From assembly GCA_958510825.1 (NCBI GenBank), contig OY294047.1:35871747-35935746 (forward strand): DNA of 64,000 nt. Reading direction: 5' to 3'. This DNA is from Brachypterus glaber. Its lineage: Eukaryota; Arthropoda; Insecta; Coleoptera; Kateretidae. The position numbers were made by a program, and so were the translations under genes. Shown one piece after another: positions 1-64,000 of the stretch. A model generated the notes under the pieces. The model was not told where the DNA came from, made no database searches, and saw only the letters and a program-made list of their open reading frames with translations. How positions within the stretch are numbered: the stretch's first letter is position 1; each line of letters starts with the position of its first letter.

Positions 1-555
1 GTTGGAAATATTGTTAAGAAAGCTAACAAAACTACCTACATAATGTTCAAAACTTTCCAAAATCCCTCTCCATCCCTCTTTAATCTCCTTTATAAATCAT
101 ACATTAGACCTCAACTGGAACATGCAGCATTAATATGGACTCCTAACTTGATAAAGGACATAAATTTGTTGGAAGGTGTTCAGCGTAGAGCAACTAAATC
201 TGTGCGTAGTATTAGCAATTTACCCTACCATGACCGTTTGGAGGCACTCAGTTTGCCAGTCTTGTCTGAAAGACGTCAAAGAGGAGAAATGATTTTTACC
301 TATAGGATAGTTAATGGACACTTCAGTGGTGATATCAATAATATGCTGACTTTAAGTGATAATCTGCAACTACGTGGTCACTCATTTAAGTTAAAGAAAG
401 AAAACTACAAGTCAACAATCCGTCAGAACTTCTTCTCGAACAGAGTTTTCAACCGCTCGAATGGACTTCAGTCAAGTGTAGTAACTGCCACAACTGTTAA
501 CTCTTTTAAAAACAATTATGATAGAACCCAAAGACACTTAGTTTCTTATATTTAA
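1..555 (+). pseudogene. 3' end of a LINE reverse-transcriptase ORF (CR1/L2/jockey-like)
   Basis: The frame is open from base 1, so the ORF enters from outside the window, and it stops at 555 (about 184 codons). The product is the region after the polymerase domain of a non-LTR retrotransposon. The usual signature of that region is readable: YIRPQLEHAALIWTP, then LLEGVQRRATK, then LSERRQRGEMIFTYRIVNG. In complete elements this part follows the catalytic core in ORF2; the core itself is not in view. No internal stop is seen in this stretch, so it may be a fairly young copy or the end of a longer one. The (TAA)n tail just downstream fits the same class. The class is well supported; the exact clade is inference. 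Confidence 0.85.
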
Positions 556-650
556 TTCTTATTTTTAGTCCCTACTTTTGAGCTATAATAGGTTTCGATC
601 TCAGCTCTAAATTGTATTTTAATAATAATAATAATAATAATAATAATATT
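556..650 (+). repeat. LINE 3' UTR and (TAA)n tail
   Basis: About 65 bases of 3' UTR lead into a run of AAT/TAA triplets (about 621-648). Triplet tails like this end many CR1/L2/I-type LINEs, so this marks the 3' terminus of the element that begins at the left edge. The next repeat, a hairpin element, follows directly. Confidence 0.7.
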
Positions 651-654
651 TGCA

Positions 655-752
655 GTCGAAGAAAAAGTATAGTCTACAACACGTATGGAATAGTCATTCC
701 GCGCTAGCAGTACCGACAAACTTCCATACTAGTTATAGAATATACTATTTAA
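655..752. repeat. Hairpin repeat H1, copy 1 (tip deleted)
   Basis: It begins TTTGCAGTCGAAGAAAAAG and runs into AGTATAGTCTACAACACG, like the copies at 22919 and 29531. The GC-rich tip of the hairpin found in those copies is missing, and only the outer stem (TATGGAATAG against the closing TCCATACTAGTTATAG) remains. It is probably a non-autonomous element or the terminal hairpin of one. Confidence 0.6.
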
Positions 753-796
753 AATACTAAATGTGACAAATGACAAAATTTGTGTTTAAAATATTA

Positions 797-868
797 AAAA
801 GCCGTGAAGATATGTAATGCTACGCATTCCATTATATACTATTCACAGTAAATGGTATATTGCATTTT
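797..868. repeat. Short hairpin repeat H2, copy 1
   Basis: GTGAAGATATGTAATGC pairs imperfectly with GCATTCCATTATATAC further along. The same ~70-bp block recurs at 29823-29890. In both places it follows an H1 hairpin, so H1 and H2 probably belong to one larger element. Confidence 0.5.
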
Positions 869-1287
869 CCAAAATGCTTGAAAAAAATCTGTTTCAGAAG
901 AAAAAGTAATAAAATTAAATTTTTTTTTCAAATAAGATATTTTCTTGAAAAACAAAAAAATATATATTTTTTTATTTTTCAAAGAAAAACCTTTTTTTTA
1001 TTTTGTTTTTGCGAAAAACGAAAAACGAAAAAAATAAAAAAGAAATTATAAAAAAGTTTAACCCCCCATAACTTTTTTGTTTTTGGGGGGATTACTTTCA
1101 AAATTGAAAGAATTAATCATTATAATAAAAGTAATTTTTTTCTGAAAAAGTTACGTTAATCGGAATTTTCTTTCAGCTTTTTCGATTCGTGTCTACAAAA
1201 ATCGTGACAAAGGACAGCCAAAAAAAATATAAAGTTTTTCTTTTTTCATAAAACAAATTTATATCCAAGAATTTTTTGTTTATGGAA
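869..1287. other. AT-rich low-complexity DNA
   Basis: Runs of A and T with a short inverted pair of C6/G6 tracts around 1062-1090. No coding signal or recognisable repeat was seen. Confidence 0.5.
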
Positions 1288-1423
1288 CGTTCAAGTATTA
1301 CGTAACGCAAATTTTGATCATTTTGTACCCCCCCCCCCTGTAACGCTACTTTTCTATACCATTAACATGGGCGTAACACTCCAAAGTGACCCCCCCCTAG
1401 GAGCGTTACGTAATACTTGAACG
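1288..1423. mobile_element. Short fold-back MITE with CGTTCAAGTATTACGTAACGC termini
   Basis: The 21 bases starting at 1288 (CGTTCAAGTATTACGTAACG plus C) are repeated as their reverse complement ending at 1423. The inside holds a C12 run and a second, shorter C run. A second copy (56015-56113) has the same left end and middle but is cut off on the right by a Tc1-like fragment. No transposase is present and no clear TSD was found. Confidence 0.65.
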
Positions 1424-1547
1424 GACAACTTTTGAAAATTTTGGGAAATTCGAAACTGTCGTATAATACTATTATAGCGCAGACGCTGTGAACAGTATAA
1501 TAGGTAATAGTACATTATTTACCAAGTAACAGAAGTTTAACATTTTT

Positions 1548-1603
1548 GACCTGCGTCAAATTGCGGGATGAGCGCGCTAGCGCGAAGCCCGCAAGACGCG
1601 GTC
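1548..1603. repeat. GC-rich hairpin in left arm of fold-back element
   Basis: GACCTGCGTC pairs with GACGCGGTC, TTGCGGG with CCCGCAA, and the tip is AGCGCGCTAGCGCG. It is absent from the matching place in the right arm (around 3530-3545), where only short AACATGTTAAAATGTTAAAC sequence is found. It was either gained on one side or lost on the other. Confidence 0.7.
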
Positions 1604-1859
1604 TAAAATGTTAAATCTTCGCTCACGTGGAAAATATAGTATTTTTTCACTACCAGTACAATTAATTAGCTATTTATTTATTTATTTATTTTACTATTTA
1701 ATGAAAACGTTTATAAATTTAAAATATCACGCTGGCCGTTCGAGGCCATTAAACAAACAAATGAATAACTTGACATTTCTGGCAGAAATTTTCTGGTGAT
1801 CTGCTAAAATTATTAAGTTAGAAAGTGTTTCCGTGTTAAGTGTAATAAAATATATAAAA

Positions 1860-2000
1860 ATGGAAAGTGAAATGCAAAGTGATGATTCTGGTACTCCTCC
1901 AGAAATAAGGGGACAGGCGAAAACTGTGAGGGAGAATCTATTGCCTCAAAAATCAATATATAGGGGTTGTACCTCTAATAATCTATGTTCCTTACGGTAA
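1860..2000 (+). pseudogene. Truncated transposon ORF start, left arm (46 codons)
   Basis: An ATG in a favourable A-rich context opens MESEMQSDDSGTPPEIRG, continues QAKTVRENLLPQKS and then falls out of any coding look to a stop at 1998. The mirror copy in the right arm (3154-3282) has the same start with one Q-to-H change. Conservation of a start in both arms suggests the 5' coding part of an autonomous parent. The ENLLPQKS segment resembles, from memory only, the N-terminal region of insect tyrosine-recombinase-like (Crypton-type) proteins. That is a weak inference. Confidence 0.4.
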
Positions 2001-2423
2001 TATATGGGTTGTATAGTCTATGGTTGAATATGATGGACCAATGATTTTCACTTTTCGAAGTGTTTTTTGTAAAACATGTTTTATAGTTACTAAATACTAA
2101 ATATAGGTACTTAATTTAGTTAATATTTTTGAAATTATCATGCAATAAATAAATTTGGTGCCTAAAGACACTTGTAAATAGCAACGGGATTTAATAATTA
2201 AGTGAAACGTCAGATGCCAAAACAGCTGAATAAAAATTCATTATTAACCATGGTGCAATTTTATTATTTTTAGAACCTCTGACGTCATAGGTAGAGAAAT
2301 AATATTTCTACCAATGAAAAGAACAGTAATAAAGATGTGGTTTTAGGCTGGTAGTGAAAAAACTAATTTGGTAGCGAGGACAAACAAACAAAAACGTAAC
2401 GATTTATTAAATTAGCAACCCAA

Positions 2424-2534
2424 ATGGATCCTAATTTGCATTATGGCAATTACGTAAATAAATCAATTGAGGTCCACGATGATTCCTACGACATTTTAGC
2501 CAAGTTCCAATTTAAACAATTTATGTCTCAGTAA
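2424..2534 (+). other. 36-codon ORF in loop of the fold-back element
   Basis: An ATG preceded by CCAA opens MDPNLHYGNYVNKSIEVHDD and ends SQ-stop. It is GC-richer than the surroundings and lies in the unique loop between the arms. It could be a second exon-like piece of the parent element or chance. No family was recognised. Confidence 0.2.
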
Positions 2535-3153
2535 GACAAAGTAGATATACAGAGTTTTGGTGTGCAAGTCGCTTGCAAAACAGCTTTACACTACGATATT
2601 TTAAGAACGCTTTGACATAAAGACTTAAATTTTTTTTCTATTAGTAAATCTTTGTTCCAAATTTTCAGTCTCCGTTTTTAACGTATAAATTAGAAAAATC
2701 TATGCCGGCATTGTTAAGGATCCAAGAAAACAGGACATGTTACATGTCATTTTAAAGGTTTTTTTATGCCTAATACAATAAAGATTTTCAATCGAAAATC
2801 ATTTTTTTCACTACCAGCCTAAAACCACATCTTTATTACTGTTCTTTTCATTGGTAGAAATATTATTTCTCTACCTATGACGTCAGAGGTTCTAAAAATA
2901 ATGAAATTGCACCATGGTTAATAATGAATTTTTATTCAGCTGTTTTCAGCTGACGTTTCACTTAATTATTAAATCACATTGCTATTTACAAGTGTCTTAA
3001 GGCACCAAATTTATTTATTGCATGATAAATTAAAAAATATTAACTAAATGAGTACCTATAAAACATGTTTTACAAAAAACACTTCGAAAAGTGAAAATCA
3101 TTGGTCCATCATATTTAACCATAGATTATACAACCCATATATTACCGTAAGGA

Positions 3154-44052: not shown

Positions 44053-44220
44053 TACTTTAAACTGAATAGGTTCTTGAAACCAATAACTGCTTCCTTTTTT
44101 GGACTGTCGATAGGTTTATCCAGTCTCTGCTTTTAGCAGTAGATGTCGCTAGCTGTTTTTGCTTTTCCTTACAACGATTTTTAAACTCTATATAGAGATA
44201 AATGGAAAGGATTTGATTTT

Positions 44221-44305
44221 CGTAGTTGTCCCTACTACCGATATGTGGCTCTGAAGAGTGCTAAAAAGCACGAAATCGATCAGTCACTTCGGAGGGACGA
44301 CTGCG
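44221..44305 (+). ncRNA. Type I hammerhead ribozyme, unit 1
   Basis: Core CTGAAGA (44251-44257), stem II GTGC/GCAC with loop TAAAAA, then GAAA (44272-44275). Stem III is the self-complementary ATCGAT, too short for a hairpin and suited to pairing between two copies. C44281 is the expected cleavage nucleotide. Stem I: GTGGCT pairs with AGTCAC (one G-U), then CCGA with TCGG and CGTAGTTGTCCCT with AGGGACGACTGCG, separated by small internal loops. All invariant core positions are present. Confidence 0.85.
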
Positions 44306-44656
44306 TTAATCAAACAAAAGTCGTTTTAAGGAATAGTAAAATGTTTTATATAGATTTTTTAAATTTGTAAATATCAAACAATTTAATTTAGTTTATTAAT
44401 TCAGATACCACTGTAAAAGGTGACCTTCTAGCGTTTAGGATTCAATTGGCGGCAATGTCCACCGTGGCATTGATTAATCTGCCCCCTATCGACAGCGTGC
44501 AATAGGTTCTTGAAACCAATAACTGCTTCCTTTTTTGGACTGTCGATAGGTTTATCCAGTCTCTGCTTTTAGCAGTAGATGTCGCTAGCTGTTTTTGCTT
44601 TTCCTTACAACGATTTTTAAACTCTATATAGAGATATATGGAAAGGATTTGATTTT

Positions 44657-44741
44657 CGTAGTTGTCCCTACTACCGATATGTGACTCTGAAGAGTGCTAA
44701 AAAGCACGAAATCGATCAGTCACTTCGGAGGGACGACTGCG
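44657..44741 (+). ncRNA. Type I hammerhead ribozyme, unit 2
   Basis: Same as unit 1, 436 bp downstream: core CTGAAGA at 44687-44693, GAAA at 44708-44711, cleavage expected after C44717. Stem I reads GTGACT here, which turns the G-U pair of unit 1 into A-U and makes GTGACT/AGTCAC fully Watson-Crick. The only change seen in the ribozyme keeps the fold. Confidence 0.85.
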
Positions 44742-45020
44742 TTAATCAAACAAAAGTCGTTTTAAGGAATAGTAAAATGTTTTATATAGATTTTTTAAAT
44801 TTGTAAATATCAAACGATTTAATTTAGTTTACTTTAAACTGACGTTTAAAAAAATTCAGGTTATTAAAATTTTTGAAGATTTATATAGCCATATTAAATA
44901 ACTAAAGTGACTGTCATTACTTTACCCTACTTTGCTAGGAGCAACGTAGGATATTTTTGTAAACTCGTTTAGAAAAAAAAAATTAAAAATCTACTAAAAT
45001 ACAGAAAAATTAAACTATAT

Positions 45021-45475
45021 TTAGGTATAAAAATAATAACTGACGGTCCTAATTTCTTAACAACCGGTTTCGGCGCTAGCCATCTTCAGGTTAGGTATAA
45101 TCTAAAAATTAACATTTTCATAGTAAAAATTAAACCAGAAAGAAAGATACAGTCTTGGACGTTTTTGGGTTATGTTAAAAAACACTTACCAAAAAATGCA
45201 TATTACACCCAGTGACATGGAATCAGTAGGGTTAAAATCAACATTATGCAGTATCTTAATAAAAACAATTAAAAAACTACATTAAATTTAGAATTTTAAA
45301 CGAATTCTTCGGAAAACACATGAGGGATGTACAAAAAAAGCAAAAAGTGTGTTGGCAACACTTTTTGACCAGTCACTAGCAGGGTATGACCAACCTAAAT
45401 TTTGAAAAAGGTGGCGCCAAAATGTGTTTAAAAAGAAAGAGAATTAGGACCGTCAGTTATTATTTTTATACCTAA
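45021..45475 (-). mobile_element. 455-bp element with perfect 34-bp TIRs and a hammerhead-like core
   Basis: TTAGGTATAAAAATAATAAC continuing TGACGGTCCTAATT is found at 45021-45054 and as an exact complement at 45442-45475. A hammerhead-like core lies just inside one TIR, as in the element at 60443. There is no ORF. It could be a Penelope-type terminal piece or a TA-inserted MITE that captured such a piece. Confidence 0.7.
45055..45094 (-). ncRNA. Hammerhead-like ribozyme core (Penelope-type)
   Basis: Minus strand: CTAAC, CTGAAGA, T, GGC-TAGC-GCC, GAAA, with self-complementary ACCGGT as stem III, U as cleavage base, then GTTA pairing with TAAC of stem I. There is one extra base between the core and stem II, so it is not an exact consensus hammerhead. 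Minimal hammerheads of this look are known from the terminal repeats of Penelope-like retroelements. Confidence 0.6.
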
Positions 45476-46349
45476 TCATTTAACTCTCACAATGGACTCC
45501 AACCACAAGTAAACTATATTTAATGGCATTTGTAAAATTTGTTAACCCCCTAAAGTTTATTTTTTTAAGGTATATTTATTTTAAATTTTCCGCTAAATAC
45601 TCCACAAAGTCCGATTTACACTGAAGCATGTGGCTTGTTTTGAATGTCAACATAACCAAAATTTATAATTTTTGTTTACTTACTTTGTTTTTATGACGTT
45701 TTGATGTAAAAAAAGAGAATTGATAAAGCTGTTGCTAAAAATACTTTTGTGTTCCTGTAGAAACAAAATTTGCTTATAAAATCGCTTTTATTCCAATAAT
45801 ATAGAGGAATAAACCATTGTTTTGTTCTCGTTAATGGCACGTCAACGTATTACGGTTATGTAAATTGGGCCTAGTCATTTCGCTTACGACGCATGCGTAT
45901 CTTACGTTGCTATGGTAATTTCAAGATTGTTTCCAAGCGGGAAATAAATAAAATAACTATACCTTAAAAAAATAAACTTTAGTACCCTAAATAGCTATAA
46001 TAATTAAAGGTGTGGGTACGATAAATTTGCTAAGCAAGTTGCATTATAGTAATAACGTTAATAATTTTTGTCTGAAATCGTTATTTTAATGCATTGTAAA
46101 CATTTATGTTTATAAGAAATTTTTCATTCGTACTTTATTGCCAGACTATAAGAATAATTATGACTGTATTATGGAATTTCACTGTTACATACTTAAAACT
46201 TTGTAATAAATTCCTAATTTAAAATATACCTACCTCTTACCAGAGGCGGTACTTTTGCTATTCATTTTCCGGGCACAGTGCCCCCCAATAAAAATACGAA
46301 AAAAACGGACTATGTCACATTATAGCCACATGCCTGGGGAGCATATAAC
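45476..46349. other. Unassigned AT-rich DNA
   Basis: An inverted pair TTTATTTTTTTAAGGTATA (about 45558) and TATACCTTAAAAAAATAAA (about 45958) encloses 45540-45985, possibly another MITE of ~440 bp. No ORF. Confidence 0.35.
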
Positions 46350-47355
46350 CATTACAACATTAATGGTGTAGTTTTGGAGCGAGTTAATACAATCAAAGAC
46401 CTGGGAGTAACTTTTGACTCAATGTTATCTTTTAAGGATCATATTTCAAACACTGTAAAGTCTTCACTAAAAATGCTTGGGTTTATTAACAGAAGTTGTA
46501 AAAACTTCACAAATAGTGATTGTCTTTTTGTTTGGAAAAAGTTTTGTTTTATTCATTTGTCAGATCTAAACTTGAATATGGGTCCCTCATTTGGTGCCCA
46601 TATTACAATATTTAAATAGATAGAATTGAATCTGTACAGCGTAGGTTCATTAAATTTCTTACTTTTAAAACAGATGGAGTAAATCCTTTAAGAGGTGCTG
46701 ATTTATCTGGTTTAATGTTAAGATTTAATATTAAGTTTTTAAATATACGCAGAAAGATATCTTCAGTAACATTTTTATATAATTTATTGCATAATATAAT
46801 TGATTGTAGTGACTTATTGTCAGTCATAGGCGAATTTCCAGTGCTCGCATAGGCGCCGCGTCTATTCTATCGTTGACGCGAGGTTTTAAATATTTACATT
46901 TTTATTTTCTTCGAAAAACACCGATATATTTACATATTTATAGTTAATATGTATATTCAATATTGTTGTGTGTAACAAATTAGTCATCAAATGTTTCGAT
47001 TTAGTGACCTTTATAGAAATTTCCCTCATAATTCGGCAAAATTATTCCGTAAGCCTATGTTTCTGTGTTTATTTTCAACGTTGATGAGTCATAACTGAAT
47101 TTATTTCGATTAATGCTTATTGTCTAGGATTAATTTTTTGGTACCTAGTACAACACGTCAATCTAAAACTTTTTTATGCCTAGAGCAAATAATTTATTGT
47201 ACAAATCACCAATTTACTTAATGTGTAATAATTTTAATGAAATTTAATTACATTGTGATATTAACTTTTCTAGTTTAAGATCTATTGTTAACTTTATAGA
47301 ATAATTTAATGTATTATTTGAATGTCCTGTTAGTTTGTAATGTTGGGCAATAAAC

Positions 47356-51689: not shown

Positions 51690-52200
51690 GGCGTTTTATA
51701 TTTTCGGGGTCGCTGAAACCGAATCTGACCTCAGAATTGCTCCATCAGATCGCAATTTTTTTTTACACTCAAAAAAAGGGTGCGAAAGTTCCTTAAATTC
51801 AGATGTTTTTAAGTGTAGAAAAAAATTGTGACCTGATGGAGCAATTCTAAACTCAGATTCGATTTCAGCGACCCCGAAAATATAAAAATTAGTTGGTCTA
51901 GTCTCTGGCACATATTTTTTTTGGGTGGCTGTAGCTAACCAAAAAAAAATTAAGTGTCAGGGACTAGACCAACGCATTTTTATATTTTCGGTGTCGCTGA
52001 AACCGAATCTGATCTCAGAATAGCTCCAACAGGTCACAATTGTTTTCTACACTTAAAAAAGTGTGCGAAAATTCCTTAAATTCAGATGTTTTTATGGGTA
52101 GAAAAAAATTGTGATCTGATGGAGCAATTCTGAGATCAGATTCGGTTTCAGGGAACCCAAAAATATAAAAATGCATTGGTCTAGTCTCTTGATATTATTT
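51690..52200. repeat. Two stacked palindromes of one family
   Basis: Each unit (51690-51905 and 51960-52190) is a self-inverted repeat: TATATTTTCGGGGTCGCTGA and CTCAGAATTGCTCCATCAGA on one side, their complements on the other. The spacer 51890-51965 is itself inverted (GGTCTAGTCTCTG / CAGGGACTAGACC). The whole region could fold into a three-hairpin structure. Confidence 0.7.
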
Positions 52201-52293
52201 TTTTTTGCGTGGCTGTGTTATTATTATTATTACTGATTTTCAGCCGGTTTTATTTTTTATTTTTAAAATATTTTTTTTTTTTACACCAAAACA

Positions 52294-60024: not shown

Positions 60025-60442
60025 TATGTTAGGATGATCAATTTTTATAATCGAGCTAAAATAGTTTTTAAATCAAGTTATCAGTGCTGAAACTGGTTTG
60101 AGGAAGCTTTACAATCCATCCTACGTTTTATCACCAGCTTTCAAAACAGTTTTTGGCGCCGTTATAGCACCGTCTAGGTCTGCTTACACCCTACATCCTT
60201 TTTATTATATTCTGCCTTTACCAGTTCGCTCTACGTTGTAGATTCTTCAAAATATTTTTAGGTATGTGACTCACTATTTTTTCCCTTCTTCAACACGCTC
60301 TCGCTTGCAACTCTATCTGGGCACTGTTTTGTAAATTTAAATATTGTTCTTATCTGTTACTTCTATTGTCCATATTTAGCAACTTTACAAAGTTTTACTC
60401 CAGATAAAGGTGTTTAAAAACCTTTCTGAGTTACTAGTTACT
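60025..60442. other. Unassigned DNA
   Basis: Nothing recognised. Confidence 0.4.
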
Positions 60443-60691
60443 ATTATATATTGATTTTAATCTTGCTTTTAGGAACACAGTGAAAAAAAGTGTCAAATTT
60501 TTTAAATTTTTTAATGTAAATTTAATTTATTAATATTTTTACCATTTAAACTAGTTTTTATATTTAATTATTATATTGTTTTAATAAATTTGCCCTGAAG
60601 AAGCCCCAACAATAAGGGGCGAAACGTTGGCTCTATAATTTTAAGTTATTTCACTGTGTTCTTAAAAGCAAGATTAAAATCAATATATAAT
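60443..60691 (+). mobile_element. 249-bp TIR element with a hammerhead-like core
   Basis: ATTATATATTGATTTTAATC and TTGCTTTTAGGAACACAGTG (60443-60484) are matched by the complement at 60648-60691 with one or two changes. A hammerhead-like core sits just inside the right repeat, the same plan as 45021-45475. No ORF or TSD was identified. Possibly a terminal piece of a Penelope-like element. Confidence 0.65.
60592..60631 (+). ncRNA. Hammerhead-like ribozyme core (Penelope-type)
   Basis: GCC (stem I), CTGAAGA (60595-60601), extra A, stem II GCCCC/GGGGC (60603-60607, 60616-60620), GAAA (60621-60624), self-complementary ACGT as stem III, U60628 as cleavage base, GGC pairing back to GCC. The extra base before stem II parallels the 45055 motif. 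Stem I is only three pairs before a loop, so activity is uncertain. Confidence 0.6.
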
Positions 60692-61284
60692 ACATAAAGA
60701 ACAAGAAAAAGAACTACCCTATGAAAAATGACCAATAGAGAACAGAAGAAATTTTCTATTGGTTTTTTTGAGGTTTCTACTCGGTTATTGAACTGGTATA
60801 TACCAATACAGACCAATAGAAAACGACTTACGTAAGTCGGTTTCTATTGGTAAACTCCAATATAGACCAGTACAATAACCGAATACAAACCGAAAAAAAA
60901 CCAATAGAGACTCGAAAAACGTATTATTGGAAATTACCAATACAATCTTGTGTAAGTCGTTTTCTATTGGTTTATAATGGGCTTTCCAATAAAATAACCG
61001 ATAGAGACCAATACAGACCAATAGAGAGGCATACAATGTATCTTATTGGAAATTACCAATATAATTTGTAGAAGTTGGTATATTGGTTTATATTGGATTT
61101 TACCGGTACAATAATGTACCAATACGGACCAATAAAGATAAAATGTATCTTATTGGAAATTGTAGGGGAAGGTTCAACGACTAGTGCCAAAGCCAAAAAG
61201 CTTTTTGCCAAAAAATTTATATCTTTGTAAAATATAAATATTTCAAAATAATTTTTCCATTGTCGTAAACTTCAAACCTTTGTC

Positions 61285-61293
61285 TATAAATAG
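61285..61293 (+). promoter_or_regulatory. Possible TATA box in Z1
   Basis: TATAAATAG about 70 bp before an ATG. Identical in Z2 at 62504. It is a candidate only. Confidence 0.3.
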
Positions 61294-61362
61294 CTGTAGT
61301 TAAAAATTTTATAAAATAAATATTTAATATTTTTTTTTGCTGTTTAAATCACAGGCTGCAAA

Positions 61363-61425
61363 ATGGCTGAATCAGCCCCAGAGCGAGGCAGATTCAACCC
61401 AGACAAGGGGCAGTTTCAAACATAA
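61363..61425 (+). other. 20-codon ORF in Z1 (exon-like)
   Basis: MAESAPERGRFNPD then KGQFQT and stop. TTTAAATCACAG just before GCTGCAAAATGG looks like a 3' splice site, so this could be a captured exon start. The block is GC-rich against AT-rich surroundings and identical in Z2. Not recognised. Confidence 0.3.
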
Positions 61426-61763
61426 ATAATATTAAAAGTTTTTATATTGGTATTTGCCAATAAATATAATATAAAATATAAACCAATAGAAAAAATATTT
61501 TTTTTTTATTGGTACTTACCAATATATATAATATCAAATATAAAACAATACAAACCAATAGAAAAAAAAGTTTTTTTTATTGGTATTTACCAATAAATAT
61601 AATATCCAATACAAACCATTAGATACCAATTGGTATTAATATTATAATATAAAAAAAAATATTTGAAAAAGACCAATACGTATTGGTCTGTACAGACCAA
61701 TAAGTGTTTGTATTGGTATGTGCCAATAAATATAATATAGATATTTCGACAAATATGAACCAA

Positions 61764-63731
61764 CCCTATGAAAAATGACCAATAGAGAACAGAAGAAATT
61801 TTCTATTGGTTTTTTTGAGGTTTGTACTCGGTTATTGAACTGGTATATACCAATACAGACCAATAGAAAACGACTTACGTAAGTCGGTTTCTATTGGTAA
61901 ACTCCAATATAGACCAGTACAATAACCGAATACAAAGCGAAAAAAAACCAATAGAGACTCGAAAAACGTATTATTGGAAATTACCAATACAATCTTGTGT
62001 AAGTCGTTTTCTATTGGTTTATAATGGGCTTCCCAATAAAATAACCGATAGAGACCAATACAGACCAATAGAGAGGCATACAATGTATCTTATTGGAAAT
62101 TACCAATATAATTTGTAGAAGTTGGTATATTGGTTTATATTGGATTTTACCGGTACAATAATGTACCAATACGGACCAATAAAGATAAAATGTATCTTAT
62201 TGGAAATAACCAAACCATAGACGCCGGCTTTTTAAACGAAACCGCGAATAAAAAACCATTGTTTTTATATTCATTCAATTTGAATAATTCAAAAATAATG
62301 GTTTAACTTAAACTTTAGTAATTTTTATCAAAGTTGGAAAATGTTGCCTTCATAAAGTTAGGAAATTGCAATAAAAAATTGTAGGGGAAGGTTCAACGAC
62401 TAGTGCCAAAGCCAAAAAGCTTTTTGCCAAAAAATTTATATCTTTGTAAAATATAAATATTTCAAAATAATTTTTCCATTGTCGTAAACTTCAAACCTTT
62501 GTCTATAAATAGCTGTAGTTAAAAATTTTATAAAATAAATATTTAATATTTTTTTTTGCTGTTTAAATCACAGGCTGCAAAATGGCTGAATCAGCCCCAG
62601 AGCGAGGCAGATTCAACCCAGACAAGGGGCAGTTTCAAACATAAATAATATTAAAAGTTTTTATATTGGTATTTGCCAATAAATATAATATAAAATATAA
62701 ACCAATAGAAAAAATATTTTTTTTTTATTGGTACTTACCAATAAATATAATATCAAATATAAAACAATACAAACCAATAGAAAAAAAAAAGTTTTTTTTA
62801 TTGGTATTTACTAATAAATATAATATCCAATACAAACCATTAGATACCAATTGGTATTAATATTATAATATAAAAAAAAAATATTTGAAAAAGACCAATA
62901 CGTATTGGTCTGTACAGACCAATAAGTGTTTGTATTGGTATGTGCCAATAAATATAATATAGATATTTCGACAAATATGAACCAATACAAAAAAGAAGGT
63001 TTTTGTACTGGTATTTACCAATAAATATAATATCCAATATAAACCATTAGATACCAATATAAAAAAAATATTTGAAAAAGACCAATACAGACCAATAAGT
63101 TTTTGTATTGGTATTTACCAATAAATATAATATCGATATTTCGTCAAATATAAACCAATACAAAAAAGAAGGTTTTTGTACTGGTATTTACCAATAAATA
63201 TAATATCCAATATAAACCATTAGATACCAATATAAAAAAAAATATTTAAAAAAGACCAATACAGACCAATAAGTTTTTGTATTGGAATTTACCAATAAAT
63301 ATAATATCGATATTTGGTCAAATATAAACCAATACAAACCAATACAAAAATAAGGTTTTTGTATTGGTACTTACCAATAAATATAAAGTCCAATATAAAC
63401 CATTAGATACCAATATATATTAAAAAAAATATTTAAATAAACCAATACGGACCAATAAGTTTTGTATTGGTATTTACCAATAAATATAATATCCAATTTA
63501 AACCAATACATACCAATAAAATAACATATATTTTGGAAAAGAACCAATACAGACCAATACGTTTTGTATTGGTAATAACCAGTAAAAATTTTTTCCAACA
63601 CAGACCAATATAAACCAATAGAGTTTAATTTTAATACCAATAAAGACCAATAAAACCAATAGAGACCAATAAAAACCAATACAAATTTCTATTGGTTTGT
63701 ATTTGATTTCTATTGGTCATTTTTCATAGGG
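61764..63731 (+). mobile_element. ACCAATA element Z2, complete, nested in Z1
   Basis: TIRs of 23 bp start CCCTATGAAAAATGACCAAT (61764) and end as the complement at 63731. Flanking AA (61762-61763 and 63732-63733) is duplicated relative to the uninterrupted GAACCAATACAAAAAAG that Z2 itself has at 62979. The interior is dominated by ACCAATA/TATTGGT in alternating orientation, with a unique GC-richer part (62205-62650). The right third has ~190-bp tandem units (starting GTTTTTGTAYTGGTATTTAC near 62998, 63171 and others). No transposase. Confidence 0.75.
62582..62644 (+). other. 20-codon ORF in Z2 (exon-like)
   Basis: Identical to the 61363 ORF, with the same TATAAATAG upstream (62504) and the same splice-acceptor-like sequence. 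Confidence 0.3.
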
Positions 63732-63733
63732 AA

Positions 63734-64000
63734 TACAAAAAAGAAGGTTTTTGTACTGGTATTTACCAATAAATATAATATCCAATATAAACCATTAGAT
63801 ACCAATATAAAAAAAATATTTGAAAAAGACCAATACAGACCAATAGGTTTTTGTATTGGTATTTACCAATAAATATAATATCGATATTTCGTCAAATATA
63901 AACCAATACAAAAAAGAAGGTTTTTGTACTGGTATTTACCAATAAATATAATATCCAATATAAACCATTAGATACCAATATAAAAAAAAATATTTAAAAA
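63734..64000 (+). mobile_element. ACCAATA element Z1, right part (runs off window)
   Basis: TACAAAAAAGAAGGTTTTTG continues precisely where 61763 left off, judged by the same junction inside Z2. The end is not in the window. Confidence 0.75.

Follow-up and report, generated by a model that had tools for sequence, protein, structure and literature searches.

The closest described relatives of the locus reported here are the animal retrozymes, among whose named hosts are insects (Cervera & de la Pena 2020, PMC7229834). The same paper treats Penelope-like elements (PLEs) as strong candidates for moving retrozymes, on the grounds of co-occurrence, shared hammerheads and tandem copies, while a 2024 review still names either LINEs or PLEs as the movers (PMC11722881). 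Possible target-site duplications (TSDs) have been noted at one hammerhead-bearing W-element type of Schistosoma (PMC8490949). For PLEs themselves, an insertion is described as consisting of direct pLTRs with an adjacent inverted pLTR and a TSD, together with an optional 31-bp tail at one inverted pLTR (PMC3846280), and the PAc protein cleaves and extends the two target strands, using two start sites whose intervening sequence is the tail (PMC11167929). Our comparison draws on passages of a literature that includes PMC7229834, PMC4918200, PMC7761336, PMC6155905, PMC2837043, PMC3846280, PMC11167929, PMC11722881 and PMC8490949, with preprints and most subscription papers outside its scope, and in those passages we found no report of PLE-type ends for retrozymes.

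The window, by which we mean the whole 64,000-nt stretch of the Brachypterus glaber assembly that was analysed, contains an insertion that is an animal non-LTR retrozyme, a previously known kind of element, of a family that is itself new. A first reading of the letters alone (the sequence-only reading) had proposed a retrozyme-like tandem element with two hammerheads and a TSD, and the repeats, the ribozymes and the 13-bp duplication bear this out. The two repeats of about 330 bp that it placed 436 bp apart align over 331 nt (44065-44395 and 44501-44831) at 99.1% identity, with 3 mismatches and a start-to-start distance of exactly 436, and the 13-bp TSD that it saw flanking the insert is likewise confirmed. 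This duplication, TACTTTAAACTGA, is the sole exact 13-mer pair at a spacing of 777 within the 64 kb; because of repeats in the 64 kb, spacings of 300-3000 hold a mean of 1.1 exact 13-mer pairs per spacing (median 0). From base composition, the chance of a 13-bp match at two given ends is about 9e-8.

Table 1 Features of the retrozyme insertion and of neighbouring elements in the 64-kb window.
Feature	Position	Strand	Remarks
Retrozyme insertion	44066..44829	+	764 bp = 1.75 units of 436 bp
Left TSD TACTTTAAACTGA	44053..44065	no strand	13 bp, identical to right copy
Right TSD TACTTTAAACTGA	44830..44842	no strand	13 bp, identical to left copy
Direct repeat copy 1	44066..44395	+	LTR-like in position only
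Direct repeat copy 2	44502..44829	+	
Single-copy part of unit	44396..44501	+	106 bp; not an LTR-element interior
Hammerhead 1, type I, extended stem I	44221..44305	+	predicted cleavage after C44281
Hammerhead 2, type I	44657..44741	+	predicted cleavage after C44717
Predicted 436-nt circular RNA unit	44282..44717	+	rod-like fold
Site A (u286)	44351	+	terminal position of genome copies; second copy 44787
Site B (u328)	44393	+	terminal position; second copy 44829 = insertion 3' end
PLE-type inverted-repeat element	45024..45509	-	486 bp; arms 45021-45058 / 45437-45475; right end ~37 bp longer
Left TSD TAAACTATATTTA of neighbour PLE-type element	45011..45023	no strand	13 bp
Right TSD of neighbour PLE-type element	45510..45522	no strand	
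Minimal hammerhead-like motif CTGAAGA-T-GGC..GCC-GAA-ACCGGT	45067..45089	-	inside 45024-45509 element
Inverted-repeat element	60442..60692	+	251 bp, 47-bp inverted repeats; minimal PLE-type hammerhead motif at 60595

The ~330-bp repeats of the window insertion are not true LTRs. The repeat-interior-repeat layout would suit an LTR retrotransposon derivative (a TRIM or a plant-type LTR retrozyme) with 330-bp repeats round a 106-bp interior, but it does so in the window copy alone: the other copies in the genome are arrays with varying 5' ends and no constant repeat ends. Further evidence against such a derivative, which we regard as practically out of the question, comes from the 13-bp TSD, from repeats that start with ATAGG and end with GTTTA, and from a hammerhead of type I rather than type III. 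By eye, neither a TGG near the start of the interior nor a purine run at its end was seen, and neither a PBS nor a PPT was seen in the spacer.

No pol III A or B boxes were found within the retrozyme and no tRNAs in the window, and the TATA-like box about 30 bp 5' of each hammerhead (44189, 44625) is too weak to serve as an argument. Ten of the 30 window frames of at least 85 aa were compared with Pfam, and no family matched. The earlier statement that the sequence belongs to no named family stands within the phages and plasmids (blastn) and the viral and prokaryotic collections (pattern search) in which no match was found; since none of these collections contains animal genomes, their nulls carry little weight. 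Elsewhere in the window, 1.8 tandem copies of a 283-bp unit built of inverted repeats occupy 51694-52216, where one window folds at z -16 and the hammerhead descriptor is negative, and nested tandem and inverted repeats with ACCAATA-type units fill 60700-63998, where a 285-bp piece occurs again at 99% after 1047 bp. A short frame at 46326-46619 resembles, by eye, the end of a LINE reverse transcriptase and has no Pfam match.

Each repeat carries the hammerhead order CTGAAGA / GTGC-TAAAAA-GCAC / GAAA / ATCGAT / C (44251-44281 and 44687-44717). Stem II is GUGC/GCAC with a 6-nt loop, while stem I comprises 6 bp, an internal loop and then 4 + 13 bp, and is open-ended, which makes the ribozyme type I. 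A strict type I descriptor matches the window at these two sites only, with 1 match in 200 dinucleotide shuffles of the 64 kb, and the core is intact at both; the two hammerheads of the sequence-only reading are confirmed. Nothing in the window matched Rfam at the curated cut-off. Hammerhead_HH9 is the best sub-threshold family at both sites, with the core aligned (30.0 and 28.4 bits, cut-off 52); its E-values are 3e-5 and 1e-4 in 1.1 kb and 0.0017 and 0.006 in 64 kb, in a scan whose 23 sub-threshold matches are mostly to microRNA families, several of them with better E-values than HH9. The 87-nt hammerhead regions fold at z -6.8 and -7.0, and 0/200 shuffles are equally stable. Across the 40 genomic loci described below there are 156 hammerhead copies, 108 of which have the commonest sequence and 8 of which are identical to it plus one end base.

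The ATCGAT had been read as a self-complementary stem III. The sequence is present at both sites, but the loop-less 3-bp stem that it would form is impossible in a monomer; helix III is either a single A-U pair capped by a palindromic UCGA loop or, when two copies pair with each other, a helix of 6 bp. In isolation, the hammerhead is predicted to prefer an inactive fold in which the core UGA pairs with UCG of the helix III loop, and about 1.7% of the predicted ensemble has stems I and II together with a free core. A double hammerhead of two copies is predicted at -82.1 kcal/mol. This comes at no cost relative to the two copies folded optimally on their own (-40.7 and -41.3) and represents a gain of 4.7 kcal/mol over a pair of monomers in the active fold (-38.4 and -39.0), whereas the best predicted fold of two copies is an inactive one at -84.4 kcal/mol. 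Because helix III is so short, the hammerheads here would probably act in pairs. Salamander hammerheads have the same helix III design and work best as dimers (PMC7229834).

Predicted cleavage at the two hammerheads spans exactly 436 nt, as the sequence-only reading had calculated. The 436-nt circle that would result is predicted to fold as a rod with 69% of its bases paired (z -7.4; 0/100 shuffles), and its non-hammerhead part reaches z -4.6 (0/100 shuffles). Strong folds are not rare in this DNA, since z <= -4.6 is also attained by 16 of 118 control windows taken from the 64 kb, and the fold of the circle is thus consistent with a retrozyme without being proof of one; the same control weakened the circular fold as a candidate proof of selection. 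The longest open stretch on the circle is 61 aa on the plus strand and 84 aa on the minus strand, and the GC content is 36% in the unit and 31% in the window. We infer a transcript that would cleave itself and form a circle.

The assembly (648 Mb, 842 contigs) contains 2127 exact hammerhead cores, and a reversed-pattern control gives 0. A search with the element yielded 138 matches in the best 40 of 902 first-look candidates. The 40 loci dissected here were scored among the 902 as those that best match a 777-base query, and they favour long (young) arrays for that reason. Every piece in them was mapped to unit coordinates, in which u1 is 44066. The arrays comprise 1.76-6.04 units at 436-bp spacing, and their 5' ends vary. 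The sequence-only reading had tied its proposal to tandem occurrence in the genome, which these arrays show, but 31 of the 60 clusters among the first 100 listed hammerhead cores, a sample independent of similarity, have a single hammerhead. In 33/40 loci a head-to-head inverted piece lies 5' of the array (40-666 bp in all). The first 100 listed cores also form 38 pairs closer than 1 kb, 26 head-to-head, 12 same-strand and 0 tail-to-tail, with 1 tail-to-tail pair within 1.5 kb.

Constant-length tandem units, up to 6 of them per array at the 40 loci, would also be expected of satellite DNA amplified by unequal crossing-over, with the hammerhead as a relic. That origin is barely credible given dispersed, TSD-flanked insertions (27/39) with defined ends and, as detailed below, variants shared by all units of an array that avoid the hammerhead.

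The window copy and 6 other loci have no inverted piece. At L019, L024, L030, L036 and L044, which belong to this group, the TSD is just 9 bp (L019) or none is detectable (the others), and the 5' end was perhaps closed in a different way. At L014 and L035 the array is preceded by two inverted pieces in succession, which looks as though the second cDNA had changed templates. A hammerhead subfamily with the loop TAACAA rather than TAAAAA occurs at several listed places, including G000:C1:12825743 and 15236438, and once in both halves of a head-to-head pair.

The ends of the insertions fall at two positions of the unit, about 42 nt apart, which we call sites A and B. The outer end of the inverted piece lies at site A (u284-304) in 21/33 loci and at site B (u328-331) in 12/33, and the 3' end of the array lies at site A (u283-296) in 16/40 and at site B (u328-337) in 24/40; the A and B windows were set after the ends had been seen and together make up 9% of the unit. 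The two ends of one insertion are at different sites in 32 of 33 cases (A/B 21, B/A 11, B/B 1). After correction for the TSD, the 25 loci that have both an inverted piece and a TSD of at least 9 bp end at opposite sites without exception (25/25; p 3e-7 given the margins; A = u282-295, B = u326-331). A TSD of at least 9 bp is present in 27 of 39 loci, L039 being excluded from these counts as it lies at a contig end, and 19 of the 27 are 12-13 bp long; mismatched flanks give 2/195, with lengths of at least 9 bp alone used in this control, the length-8 class being an N-padding artefact. The TSDs of the 25 loci are 87% A+T. The 12/39 loci in which a TSD of at least 9 bp is absent include 4 of the 6 testable loci that have no inverted piece. 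The window copy has its 3' end at site B and a TSD.

The inverted pieces bear on how many primers are used. Were they products of fold-back, that is, self-priming of one cDNA with no second primer, as has been proposed for a rotifer Penelope from palindromes at inverted junctions (PMC3846280), the inner ends of the two pieces should be related. They are unrelated in unit position, with the inverted and the direct piece ending within 15 nt of each other in 1/33 loci against 2.3 expected by chance. The pieces overlap by 0-4 bp in 19 of the 33 inner junctions, are separated by a gap of 1-15 bp in 10 and have a longer overlap in 4. The outer end at A or B in 33/33 loci is likewise unpredicted by fold-back, which we hold to be very improbable.

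Mobilisation by a LINE, through one-strand target-primed reverse transcription with 5' inversions arising by twin priming, would account for some of this anatomy, since extended TSDs and inverted 5' parts are features of LINE insertions as well. A resemblance to LINE insertions has been noted for Nematostella repeats with TSDs of 15 bp (PMC4918200). The window holds a possible LINE-like reverse transcriptase fragment at 46326, seen by eye and with no Pfam match, but neither AATAAA nor an A-run is present at the 3' end of the retrozyme. Two internal end sites, of which each insertion uses one of each, are to our knowledge no LINE signature. They do fit the tail of PLEs (PMC11167929, PMC3846280), and local PLE-type elements show the same anatomy, in a comparison that covers PLE-type elements only. 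We therefore consider a LINE quite improbable as the mover. The sequence-only reading had pointed to LINE- or Penelope-type integration rather than an LTR integrase; the ends and inverted pieces of the genome copies favour its Penelope half.

Variants within the arrays carry information on the template. Substitutions fixed in all units of an array number 25, in 16/40 loci, where 500 permutations give a mean of 0.6 and a maximum of 5; the 25 are not independent and represent 15 distinct changes. At the sites of fixed variants the inverted piece carries the same base in 9/9 covered cases. Four of these nine involve the same substitution at u107, whose frequency in the family is 15%; multiplied together, the nine family frequencies give 9e-11. 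The inverted piece lacks 66 of the variants confined to one unit of the array and shares 2; the corresponding numbers for partial array variants are 2 and 2, and 41 variants are confined to the inverted piece. Units diverge on average by 0.54% within an array and by 0.84% between arrays. The all-unit variants must either have gone through a one-unit stage, which a circle would offer, or owe their spread to later homogenisation. The 87-nt hammerhead region is free of fixed variants (0/25, or 0/15 distinct; expected by chance about 4% of the time). It does contain 35 single-unit variants, a density of 24.7 per 10 kb, against 21.7 over most of the unit and 34.7 near A and B. That fixed variants avoid the hammerhead and single-unit ones do not hints, weakly, that the ribozyme is needed for spread.

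The nine variants present in several but not all units speak against a pure circle model and are compatible with a template that is a linear multimeric transcript rather than a circle, its units copied as they are from a tandem source array. Multimeric RNAs have been described in the axolotl (PMC7229834), and insertion by PAc in vitro did not need hammerhead cleavage (PMC11167929). A linear template is nevertheless unlikely in our view, as the 25 all-unit variants (permuted mean 0.6) would need passage through a single unit or later homogenisation, and the hammerhead is without a fixed variant.

PLE-type proteins, candidates for the enzyme, are abundant in the genome. A PLE-type frame of 389 aa has a reverse transcriptase and a GIY-YIG domain, both above the Pfam cut-off, and its relatives (106 scored of 4802 candidates) have open frames of up to 861 aa; L061-L066 were left out of this locus analysis. 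L067 and L068 share 99% identity over 1.1 kb, and in both the RT/GIY-YIG match of the open frame (861 and 859 aa) is succeeded by repeats of about 160 bp. Nine inverted-repeat elements, hand-picked among inverted pairs and taken to be PLE-type, provide a local reference: five (L051, L056, L058, L059 and the window element at 45024-45509) have a TSD of 12-17 bp and one end longer than the other by 28-37 bp, which amounts to a tail, and 4/9 have no TSD. Swapped flanks give 0/72 at 9 bp or more. The window member of this set lies about 180 bp from the retrozyme and carries the same scar; on its sequence, the MITE-looking stretch 45011-45522 is a PLE-type insertion. No TSD was found at the second inverted-repeat element of the window, 60442-60692.

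Minimal hammerheads with the layout CTGANGA-N-stem II-GAA-palindrome occur at several sampled PLE loci. By eye, most of the minimal motifs (L053-L060, L071-L073, L076, L078, L082 and 45089 and 60595 in the window) contain an additional base between A9 and helix II. The minimal-hammerhead descriptor was widened by one base after both window motifs had been seen, and in this form has 0 matches in 500 shuffles; Rfam at E <=1 leaves these two motifs unreported. When the retrozyme was compared with 12 PLE loci and 16 three-prime flanks, no significant sequence similarity was found, the best family being matched by 342/2000 shuffles and 120/1264 genomic pieces. The retrozyme has a distance of 101 nt between its first core base and first start site; the figure is 99-102 in two local PLE families and 93 and 88 in two more, while in the window PLE-type element it is 66, with the tail end at 103 (all partly by eye). 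Without sequence similarity, this likeness in distance is a lead only.

Units, hammerheads, TSDs, A/B ends, inverted pieces, shared variants and PLE-type proteins make up the evidence at the level of sequence. On this basis, we place the probability that the retrozyme is moved by PLE-type two-sided target-primed reverse transcription at roughly 0.86. Mobilisation in trans, the enzyme and priming by both strands are the parts of this reading that we infer. In such a scheme, a transcript over at least two units would be cut by the hammerheads into a 436-nt linear RNA, which a host ligase would close into the rod-like circle. A Penelope-type RT/GIY-YIG endonuclease would make staggered cuts, about 12-13 bp apart, in the two strands of an A+T-rich target. 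The DNA 3' ends so freed would each act as a primer for reverse transcription of the circle, one starting at A and the other at B, a distance of 42 nt. One of the cDNAs would circle several times and give the array, while the other, usually short, would give the inverted piece; the two would then be joined head to head, and filling in of the stagger would leave the TSD. For the window copy, the second cDNA would be missing and the 5' end joined straight to the target.

We give even odds to the stronger proposal that both cut strands prime on one small circle, at two sites, in nearly every insertion, which would make the retrozyme a 'template-only' Penelope element that records PLE geometry. 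The hammerhead may also serve as a docking mark. The animal retrozyme copies studied here carry a specific and countable footprint of PLE-type integration, so that the question of which enzyme mobilises retrozymes becomes testable on any genome that has them. For the PLE mechanism itself, the opposite start sites and the variants shared by array and inverted piece favour priming by both strands and oppose fold-back.

The locus shares with the animal non-LTR retrozymes described in PMC7229834 non-coding tandem units, a type I hammerhead, a GC content below 45%, the lack of LTR, PBS and PPT and a TSD of more than 4 bp. The highly paired circle of those retrozymes may have a counterpart in the rod-like fold predicted here. 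The unit of 436 bp lies within the 150-450 bp given there for repeats and slightly above the 170-400 nt of the abstract. The words 'inverted', 'truncat' and 'tail' have 0 occurrences in the text of that paper available to us, and inverted 5' pieces and two fixed ends were not found there. In its salamander and newt hammerhead HHR_Amex1, a one-pair helix III with a palindromic tetraloop favours dimeric cleavage, a design that recurs here; the extended stem I (6 + 4 + 13 bp) sets the present hammerhead apart, in a comparison by description only. Among insect repeats, the pDo500 satellite of Dolichopoda cave crickets (463-505 bp) also has a hammerhead with a proposed extended stem I (PMC2837043), but is described as a satellite, the main text of that source using 'TSD' and 'retro' 0 times. 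Plant LTR retrozymes (PMC4918200) are alike in having two hammerheads in direct repeats and a circRNA intermediate and in being non-autonomous, and differ in their type III hammerhead, 4-bp TSD, PBS, PPT and Gypsy-type mobilisation. Unlike PLEs, the retrozyme unit has no ORF, reverse transcriptase or GIY-YIG domain and carries a canonical hammerhead in 436 nt of non-coding sequence, and its A-B distance is 42 nt where the ends of the five local PLE-type elements differ by 28-37 bp. In the anatomy of its insertions, however, it resembles PLEs as described (PMC3846280, PMC11167929) in having an inverted partial copy on the 5' side, partial tandems, a TSD, an optional tail of about 30-40 bp, two start sites for reverse transcription, A+T-rich targets and a type I hammerhead.
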